Notes under the pieces: model-generated | What the model saw: only the letters and a program-made list of their open reading frames with translations | Databases searched by the model: none | Told to the model about the DNA's origin: nothing | Translations under genes and position numbers: made by a program | Assembly (NCBI GenBank): GCA_023259635.1 | Contig: JALRGX010000138.1 | Location: forward strand, 1-35,234 | DNA: 35,234 bases | Reading direction: 5' to 3' | DNA from: Methylotenera sp. | GTDB taxonomy: Bacteria; Pseudomonadota; Gammaproteobacteria; Burkholderiales; Methylophilaceae | In this document: positions 31,653 to 35,234 of the stretch, one piece after another | How positions within the stretch are numbered: the first letter of the stretch is position 1 | Layout of the letters: every line of letters starts with the position of its first letter

Positions 31653-33503
31653 TTATTTCTCGATCTGGGAAACATCACGTACTGCGCCACGCGCTGCACT
31701 GGTACTCATTGCCGCATAGGCTCGCAATGCCGGTGAAACTACACGAACACGGTTTACCGGTTTCCAGGCATCCTTGCCTTTGTCTTCCATTTTCAAACGA
31801 CGGTGCGACAATTCCTCATCGCTCACTGCCAAATGAATGGTGCGGTTAGGAATATCAATCTCGATCGTGTCGTTTTCCTCTACCAGACCAATCGCACCGC
31901 CTTCGGCAGCTTCCGGCGAAGCATGGCCGATACTCAGGCCAGAAGTACCACCGGAGAAACGGCCATCGGTGAGCAAGGCGCATACTTTACCCAAGCCTTT
32001 AGACTTGAGGTATGAAGTCGGGTACAGCATTTCCTGCATGCCAGGACCGCCGCGTGGGCCTTCATAACGGATCACCACAACATCACCCGCCACGATTTTA
32101 TCAGCCAGAATCGCTTCAACCGCAGAATCCTGGCTCTCAAAAATGCGTGCACGGCCGGTAAATTTCAGAATACTGTCATCCACACCCGCGGTTTTAACAA
32201 TACAGCCATCGAGCGCGATATTGCCGTAAAGCACTGCCAAGCCACCATCTTGTGAATAGGCATGTGCTTTATCACGAATGCAGCCTTCAGCGCGGTCATC
32301 ATCCAAATCAGGCCACAGCATGGATTGACTGAATGCAATCGTGGTAGAAATGCCACCCGGTGCAGCGCGGTAGAATTTCTTCACATCTTCATTATCGGTG
32401 ACTTTAATGTCCCATTGATCCAAAGCCTCACCCAAGGTTGCGCTATGTACGGTTGGCGTATCACGATGGATCACACCCGCACGGTCCAGCTCACCTAAAA
32501 TTGCCATTACACCGCCAGCACGGTGTACGTCTTCCATGTGGTATTTAGCTGTAGCAGGCGCTACTTTGCTCACACATGGCACTTTGCGCGAAATCTGGTC
32601 AATATCACTCATCGTGAAATCAACACCCGCCTCATGTGCGGCTGCCAGCAAATGTAACACAGTATTGGTTGAGCCGCCCATGGCCACATCCAGGCTCATC
32701 GCATTTTCAAACGCCTTTAAGTTGGCAATGCTGCGTGGCAGCACGCTGTAATCATCCTGCTCATAGTGACGTTTTGCCAGCTCCACAATCAAGCGGCCGG
32801 CTTTCAGGAATAATTCCTTACGTGCGGCATGCGTTGCCAGGGTAGAGCCATTACCCGGCAAACTAAGACCCAGCGCCTCAGTCAGGCAGTTCATTGAGTT
32901 GGCGGTAAACATACCGGAACATGAGCCACAGGTTGGGCAGGCAGAGCGCTCAATCGCATCTGTTTCCGCATCGCTCACCTTATCATCAGCTGCGGCAACC
33001 ATCGCATCCACCAGATCCAGCTTATGTGTATTGCCATTCCAATTCACCTTGCCTGCTTCCATCGGGCCGCCAGACACGAACACCACCGGAATATTCAAAC
33101 GCAATGCCGCCATTAACATACCCGGCGTGATTTTGTCGCAGTTTGAAATACATACCAGCGCATCTGCACAGTGCGCATTGACCATATACTCCACGCTATC
33201 TGCAATTAGATCCCGACTAGGCAGGCTATACAGCATACCGCTGTGGCCCATGGCAATACCGTCATCCACGGCAATGGTGTTAAACTCTTTTGCCACACCG
33301 CCCGCTTTTTCAATCTCGCGGGCTACCAGCTGACCCATATCTTTAAGATGAACATGCCCCGGCACGAACTGCGTAAACGAGTTGGCAACGGCGATGATAG
33401 GTTTACTGAAATCACCATCTTTCATGCCGGTAGCACGCCACAGAGCGCGTGCACCCGCCATATTGCGACCATGAGTAGTAGTATGTGAACGATAAACAGG
33501 CAT
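31653..33503 (-). CDS. ilvD: Dihydroxy-acid dehydratase
   Basis: [55 protein letters not shown]...[19 protein letters not shown]. Confidence 0.98.
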
Positions 33504-33604
33504 GATAAAAATCCGTAATTATTTGAAGAATAAATAAAAGTGTAATTTTAAACGAGCTAGCGAGAAGTAGCTAAAGAAAAATGCATAAGAATAAAAACAT
33601 CTCT

Positions 33605-33626
33605 TTGACGGAAAGTTTTCCGTCAA
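33605..33626. promoter_or_regulatory. 22-bp palindrome upstream of ilvD and next to the cassette boundary
   Basis: TTGACGGAAA-GT-TTTCCGTCAA, perfect 10-bp arms. Confidence 0.5.
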
Positions 33627-33645
33627 TTAGGATGCCTACTTTGCG

Positions 33646-34471
33646 TTAGGCCAATAAATAAGCAAATGGAAAAAGCAGACATCATTAAAGAAATAATTCG
33701 CACTGCTGAAGAAAACGGCGGGATTCCGTTGGGTCGAGATCGTTTTCATCAAATTACTTCTGTTAAATTATCAGATTGGTATGGTAAATATTGGGCCAAA
33801 TGGAATGATGCAATAATTGATGCAGGTTTCGAACCCAATCAAATGAATCAACCATTTGACAGTAAATATCTTCTAGAAAAATATTCAGATTTTATAAATG
33901 AATTAGGGAAAGTTCCGACTGCCCCAGAAGTCAGAATGAAAGCTCGTAACGATGAAAATTTCCCAAGCCACAATACATTCTCAAGATTTGGTTCTAAAAA
34001 AGAACTAGTCGGTCATTTAATTGTGTTTTGTAAGAAGCACAGCAAATACAATCATTTAGTGTCTTTGCTCGAAAGTGCTCCCCATGCCTCACCTTCCGAA
34101 GCTCAAGAAAATGATAAAAAAACTAACGATCAAACTGCATATGTATATCTAATGCAGTTTGGTAATGAATACAAAATTGGTAATTCATTGAATGTAGAAA
34201 GAAGGTTTAGGGAGCTTAAAACACAGATGCCATATGAAGGAAAAATCATACATACAATAGAAACAGGAGATCCTGAAGGTATCGAAGCCTATTGGCATGC
34301 GTTCTTTTCCGACAAGCGCCTTAAAGGTGAATGGTTCAACTTGTCTATATCTGATATTAAATATTTCAAAAAAAGGAAATTGATGTGACTAAATATTGGC
34401 CTAACAAGTGCTTCGAGTATTGCGCCTTCTGCGCAGCGACCTCGCTACCGCTCGGCCCCTCAAGCTAGCCG
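33646..34471 (+). mobile_element. Putative integron gene cassette 1
   Basis: Starts at G|TTAGGC (33645/33646), ends at G|TTAGGG (34471/34472); one ORF plus a 3' attC; cassette start TTAGGC complements its own R'' GCCTAAC. Confidence 0.72.
33666..34388 (+). CDS. GIY-YIG/T5orf172-like nuclease-family protein with N-terminal homing-endonuclease-associated-like repeats
   Basis: C-terminal YVYLMQFGNEYKIGNSLNVERRFRELKTQMPYEGKIIHTIETGDPEGIEAYWHAFFSDKRLKGEWFNLS; N-terminal repeated ...GKVPTAPEV...SRFGS-like segments. Confidence 0.75.
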   Translation: MEKADIIKEIIRTAEENGGIPLGRDRFHQITSVKLSDWYGKYWAKWNDAIIDAGFEPNQMNQPFDSKYLLEKYSDFINELGKVPTAPEVRMKARNDENFPSHNTFSRFGSKKELVGHLIVFCKKHSKYNHLVSLLESAPHASPSEAQENDKKTNDQTAYVYLMQFGNEYKIGNSLNVERRFRELKTQMPYEGKIIHTIETGDPEGIEAYWHAFFSDKRLKGEWFNLSISDIKYFKKRKLM

Positions 34472-34477
34472 TTAGGG
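34399..34477 (+). other. attC recombination site 1
   Basis: R'' GCCTAAC (34399-34405), L'' GCTTCGAG (34410-34417), L' CTCAAGC (34459-34465), R' GTTAGGG (34471-34477); L''/L' pair with one unpaired base. Confidence 0.78.
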
Positions 34478-34485
34478 TTCTTACA

Positions 34486-34617
34486 ATGGAAATAAAAACT
34501 CATCCGACACATGCTAGAAATACCAAAAATATTATGGTTGGGTTAGGCGCTACCGCTATTTCTGGTTGGGCAATTGCTATGGTAATTGGCAAAACGACCA
34601 AAACCCAGAAATTGTAA
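34486..34617 (+). CDS. Small membrane protein, 43 aa
   Basis: MEIKTHPTHARNTKNIMVGLGATAISGWAIAMVIGKTTKTQKL; first ATG after attC1 (longer ORF start at 34408 lies inside attC1). Confidence 0.4.
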   Translation: MEIKTHPTHARNTKNIMVGLGATAISGWAIAMVIGKTTKTQKL

Positions 34618-34826
34618 ATATCCTCGCCTTAATTGTCGTCATATCGGTGATTGGTATTCTTACTACGGCTTCATTACGGGCATTCTTAATACAATGCCCC
34701 TCCTGTGAAAAACTCCTAACCAAACAAGTTTCAGTTAACAAATCAAATGAAACTCGAAAGTTCTGCTGTGAAAGGTGTAACGTTATTTGGGACTCAAAGG
34801 TACAGTATGAATTTGGCAGTGATTAA
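34566..34826 (+). CDS. Small membrane protein with C-terminal zinc-ribbon-like CPSC...CCERC
   Basis: IVNILALIVVISVIGILTTASLRAFLIQCPSCEKLLTKQVSVNKSNETRKFCCERCNVIWDSKV; overlaps 34486-34617 in another frame. Confidence 0.5.
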   Translation: MGNCYGNWQNDQNPEIVNILALIVVISVIGILTTASLRAFLIQCPSCEKLLTKQVSVNKSNETRKFCCERCNVIWDSKVQYEFGSD

Positions 34827-34829
34827 ACA

Positions 34830-34887
34830 TCCTAACCTCTCATTCAAACGGGATGCCTAACGGCACCACTTAATTCAAATGTTGAAC
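34830..34887 (+). other. attC-like site 2 (degenerate)
   Basis: TCCTAACCTCTCATTCAAACGGGATGCCTAACGGCACCACTTAATTCAAATGTTGAAC; 58 bp, TGCC-TAAC-GGCA apex, GTTGAAC fits GTTRRRY, layout like short aadA-type attC sites. Confidence 0.55.
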
Positions 34888-34910
34888 GTAAACTAGATTG
34901 CACAATCACT

Positions 34911-35234
34911 TTGATATTAAATAACTCGCTCACTGAACTAACAACAAGTGCCACTGATTTAGCACTGGCCATTGAATGCGTTGTGATTACAACCTTACTA
35001 TTGCGTACAGCAACTACTGATCCATGGAGAAAAAAAGTCTGGTACTGGGTATTTACCCTTCTGGCAGTTTCATCTTTGCTCGGGGCTCTGGCGCATGGTT
35101 TAACAATGCCTGATTACATTAACGCAGCGCTATGGAAACCGCTCTACTTAAGCAATGGAATTTTGGTGGCGCTGTTCTTCATAGGCGCTGTGGCAGATCT
35201 GCGATTCCGCACCCTGGCACAGCGACTTACGTCA
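34911..35234 (+). CDS. Multi-pass membrane protein, partial (runs off window end; start uncertain, TTG proposed)
   Basis: Open frame ...NSLTELTTSATDLALAIECVVITTLLLRTATTDPWRKKVWYWVFTLLAVSSLLGALAHGLTMPDYINAALWKPLYLSNGILVALFFIGAVADLRFRTLAQRLTS. Confidence 0.65.
   Translation, partial: MILNNSLTELTTSATDLALAIECVVITTLLLRTATTDPWRKKVWYWVFTLLAVSSLLGALAHGLTMPDYINAALWKPLYLSNGILVALFFIGAVADLRFRTLAQRLTS

Follow-up and report, generated by a model that had tools for sequence, protein, structure and literature searches.

Integrase loss is common in integrons, judging from the 43% of intI homologues that are predicted to be inactive (PMC3108266) and from Xanthomonas, in which intI lies downstream of ilvD and has mostly been lost (PMC12444791). 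Arrays that keep attC sites and no integrase are described as CALINs (PMC12444791, PMC7923331), and a chromosomal integron is known in the methylotroph Methylobacillus flagellatus KT (PMC2426708). The window analysed here is the entire 35,234-bp contig C140 of a 2.2-Mb Methylotenera draft genome (159 contigs, 92% complete). It holds an ordinary fossil integron, an integrase-less CALIN-type array with attI and a predicted cassette promoter (Pc), of a kind already known. The locus is very probably what remains of a sedentary chromosomal integron between ilvD and lgt, from which intI was deleted in place while Pc, attI and the cassettes were left behind (Table 1). The literature library searched yielded no description of the locus, which reflects the reach of that search and does not prove that none exists.

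Table 1 Features of the integron remnant in the window and on the joined contig
Feature	Position	Strand	Basis or remark
ilvD (dihydroxy-acid dehydratase), left flank	31653..33503	-	Pfam ILVD_EDD_N and ILV_EDD_C
ilvD upstream region, ending at the left side of the putative deletion	33504..33583	.	side-by-side sequences
Putative junction left by intI loss	33584..33604	.	breakpoint placed to about 10-20 nt
Pc-like promoter: TTGACG (33605-33610), 17 nt, TAGGAT (33628-33633)	33605..33633	+	dyad TTGACG..CGTCAA
attI core GCCTACTTTGCGTTAGGC	33634..33651	+	crossover G33645|T33646
Gene cassette 1, 826 bp	33646..34471	+	junctions and attC1
Cassette 1 gene, 240-aa protein	33666..34388	+	Pfam
attC1, 7-bp R stem and extrahelical base	34399..34477	+	R1 22.8 bits, E 9e-4; folds
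Gene cassette 2, 410 bp	34472..34881	+	89% identical DNA in G171
Cassette 2 gene, zinc-ribbon-like end after two membrane helices	34486..34826	+	one-base deletion near 34590
attC2, Methylophilaceae type, decayed R' (GTTGAAC)	34830..34887	+	R1 39.2 bits, E 6e-8; poor fold
Third unit: DUF6962 membrane-protein gene, TTG start 34911	34882..35234	+	stop at C64:458 (joined contig)
Exact 134-base overlap with contig C64, which runs on to lgt	35101..35234	.	

Cassettes and attC sites between ilvD and lgt

Joining contig C64 to the end of the window closes the locus in the order ilvD, attI, cassette 1, cassette 2, DUF6962 gene and lgt, with about 2.14 kb from the ATG of ilvD to that of lgt. The two cassettes had been proposed in a sequence-only reading of this DNA, and all of its sequence claims check out. 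The G|TT junctions follow positions 33645, 34471 and 34881; cassette 1 starts TTAGGC, exactly complementary to its own R'' (GCCTAAC, at 34399), and cassette 2 starts TTAGGG, with one mismatch to its R'' (TCCTAAC, at 34830). Both proposed sites were also matched by a covariance model (R1) built from 24 attC sites, 22 of them taken from relatives' integrons located via IntI and the other 2 from plasmid R46; the window contributed none. The match to attC2 spans 34830-34886 and that to attC1 34399-34477, the E-values in Table 1 applying to the 35-kb window, and the third-best match in the window (14.5 bits) lies in unrelated sequence. Both sites exceed chance and both cassettes are genuine. The same reading overlooked the intact Pc-like promoter and attI at 33605-33651, the frameshift in cassette 2, the DUF6962 gene and the continuation on C64 to lgt.

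An extrahelical base is a hallmark of attC. The bottom strand of attC1 pairs 7 bp in R and 7 in L and leaves one extrahelical G in the L stem, with a total folding energy that is not unusual for its composition (z about -0.5). attC2 belongs to the common Methylophilaceae type and carries several changes, chiefly in R', which became GTTGAAC, so that the fold of a proper attC is lost. The fold features expected of an attC that would recombine as a folded bottom strand are found in attC1 only. attC1 still looks usable, and an IntI acting in trans could in principle move it. Scanning the remainder of the genome with R1 gave no further match; attC1 was missed in that scan too, so divergent sites may escape it. 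A gapped CTAAC..GTTAG pattern occurred at 3 places per strand of the genome, none convincing, versus 46-47 for its backwards control, and an Rfam scan returned nothing at the gathering threshold.

Cassette 1 encodes a protein with an N-terminal homing-endonuclease-associated repeat and a C-terminal GIY-YIG-like T5orf172/MUG113 domain (Pfam). Homologues with 41-42% identity occur in three other Burkholderiales genomes, in one of them between cassette-like junctions. A scan of genome contigs with this protein found no relative, and nothing useful came from searching plasmids with the complete region or with either cassette protein. Assignment of cassette 1 as a defence gene was rejected, the only PADLOC result being a weak candidate match in the GIY-YIG part.

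Cassette 2 is shared with G171, a member of a different genus, at the DNA identity given in Table 1, and the sequences upstream of the two copies differ. The match starts with the base that follows the G|TT junction and stops within attC, the breakpoints of a cassette that moves as a unit, which is demonstrated for cassette 2 alone. This junction-exact match is the strongest proof of mobility. Neither cassette gene is ordinary syntenic DNA in relatives; synteny of that kind would have counted against the sequence-only reading, as would a lack of attC model matches. In G171 the cassette 2 gene has an open reading frame; here one missing base shifts the frame, and both the gene and attC2 are decaying. 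No attC lies between the DUF6962 gene and lgt on the joined contig, so the third unit is a non-cassette gene (an independent insertion) or else a last cassette that has been truncated. The DUF6962 domain was found in 1 of 187 genomes of the family, namely this one.

A conserved Pc-like promoter and attI signature

Just 5' of cassette 1 lies TTGACG-N17-TAGGATGCCTACTTTGCGTTAGGC (33605-33651), an arrangement that many relatives carry between intI and the first cassette (G144, G145, G136, G116 and others). The attI of a complete integron is thereby present. The pattern occurs in about 50 copies in 39 of the 187 family genomes and is absent from the pattern controls, and its chance expectation in the window is none. 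Column conservation shows hexamers and a 17-nt spacing that are nearly fixed around a variable spacer, as expected of Pc, and the element is predicted to act as the cassette promoter. The signature TTGACG-N17-TAGGATGYCTACTT..CGTTRRR marks attI sites of the family even after intI loss, and tools seeking intI and attC alone would not use it.

The dyad within the promoter (33605-33626) was initially a candidate for a separate element and was dropped as such, having proved part of Pc/attI in relatives. Its inner pairs match above shuffled columns (positions 9-14 and 10-13, 0/1000 shuffles, counts that related sequences inflate). Here and in relatives, this pattern suggests that the promoter overlaps an operator or a site bound by a recombinase.

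The missing integrase

At least 11 relatives of the same genus have the order ilvD, intI, attI and cassettes, or have intI between ilvD and a contig end (G111, G144, G145, G136, G129, G148, G119, G122, G127, G152 and G128). A single contig of G111, and likewise of G144, carries the integron with ilvD on one side and lgt on the other; the lgt of G110 and of G115 is no more than about 9 kb away from intI, on the side of the array; and relatives' arrays end at lgt wherever the contig reaches that far. The region upstream of ilvD is conserved in side-by-side comparison with relatives that have the integron and with relatives that do not, and here only about 20 bp separate this conserved leader from Pc, with no intI fragment left. 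The sequence-only reading had allowed for either an integrase-less cluster or an integrase outside the window. The first option is supported: the place of intI in relatives, the gap between ilvD and attI, lies inside the window and is empty, the other flank reaches lgt on C64 without intI, and none was found in the rest of the assembly.

A search of the 92%-complete assembly with TIGR02249 gave no match above cut-off for intI, an element of the complete integron. The only match, at 73 bits versus a cut-off of 265 and without the IntI-specific stretch and model positions 193-232, was rejected as IntI and is XerC, located behind dapF in a dapF-DUF484-xerC cluster (names assigned by eye). The assembly is a fragmented draft, in which an IntI on a missing contig is possible and the junction at 33584-33604 is known from the assembly alone.

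The ilvD-intI region varies among relatives. In G145, an AbrB-like antitoxin and a Doc-like toxin (by eye) lie between ilvD and intI (L055:7297-7931), and the pair is absent from the window; similar-sized ilvD-intI gaps occur in G144, G148, G127 and G128. Small toxin-antitoxin-like genes (by eye) also separate intI from attI by about 1.5 kb in G127 (L061:11459-12728).

In-place loss of intI is the simplest account of an attI kept where relatives keep intI. A single deletion would have taken intI and its promoter, ending some 10-20 bp before the cassette promoter and leaving Pc, attI, two cassettes and the third gene. Without IntI, the array on its own would be unable to take up or excise cassettes, and its genes would be read from Pc as a short fixed operon. 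Its last sites are drifting, attC2 having lost its R' match and the cassette 2 gene its reading frame. In an ilvD tree of 22 genomes, this genome groups with G116 and G134 (support 99/97). The nearest relatives by ilvD (G134, G116 and G118) have no integron at this locus, G116 carrying one elsewhere, so the direction of change, which we infer to be loss, rests on the wider genus. The tree needs five changes of integron presence at the locus; gains and losses therefore recur.

Pc/attI sites without a neighbouring intI are found elsewhere in the family. The 30 Pc/attI loci examined include, in addition to the window, about 12 that lack intI over a distance of about 1.5 kb, and 4 with only intI fragments or a broken gene. 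Copies without intI include G110:C1:1263142, G115:C1:1956093, G145:C21:749, G148:C18:40490 and C29:2933, and three each in G072 and G168; in most, attC sites follow and the leader found upstream of attI is kept. In G117:C10 (L069:3283-3429), only some 50 residues from the start of intI are left next to an intact Pc/attI and attC array, an intermediate stage of the same intI loss. Genomes with such sites often carry intI elsewhere. That a single integrase acts in trans on many of the family's intI-less sites with cassettes, making them a dispersed set of expression sites and not dead relics, is conceivable though unlikely.

Alternatively, intI may never have been lost here: a block of Pc/attI and cassettes lacking it would have come from another integron and settled between ilvD and lgt. 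Such a transfer would agree with the intI-less copies at other family loci and with the empty locus in the nearest relatives, but many members of the genus carry a complete integron exactly here and in-place loss needs fewer events, and we consider the transfer quite improbable. The chance that a mixed population produced the missing intI as an assembly artefact is very slim. The genome is a draft, and C140 and C64 part inside the DUF6962 gene with their exact overlap, like a branch of an assembly graph; this branch, however, is 1.5 kb away from the intI junction, no contig of the assembly contains intI, and inspection by eye showed no sequence shared at the junction that could account for a false join. 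The decay of cassette 2, an independent sign, is in keeping with a silent array. Chance GTTRRRY and RYYYAAC matches between ordinary genes, a reading that could draw on the moderate score of attC1 taken alone and on its unexceptional overall folding energy, have next to no probability given the model E-values, the extrahelical base and the conserved attI, and are already contradicted by the junction-exact cassette in G171. If intI was lost in place, the locus is a well-resolved case of a small chromosomal integron becoming a fixed gene block, in which intI disappears, the promoter and attI persist, and decay sets in at the distal cassettes.

Comparison with known systems

The locus resembles a CALIN (PMC12444791, PMC7923331) in having two attC-bounded cassettes in one orientation and no integrase. 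The covariance model finds the minimum of two attC sites, one of them decayed, and no integron integrase lies nearby. Unlike a CALIN, which is defined by attC sites alone, it keeps attI and the predicted Pc; the earlier description as an integrase-less cluster stands as to intI and falls short as to these two elements. The likeness to M. flagellatus KT (PMC2426708) is that of a chromosomal integron in a related methylotroph. As far as the ilvD integrons of Xanthomonas are described by Gillings 2005, cited via PMC12444791, they share with this locus a position beside ilvD, repeated loss or truncation of the integrase and small frozen arrays. Xanthomonas belongs to another class of bacteria, and its intI is described there as downstream of ilvD, whereas the integron here occupies the ilvD-lgt interval, 5' of ilvD, apparently opposite to the side occupied in Xanthomonas.
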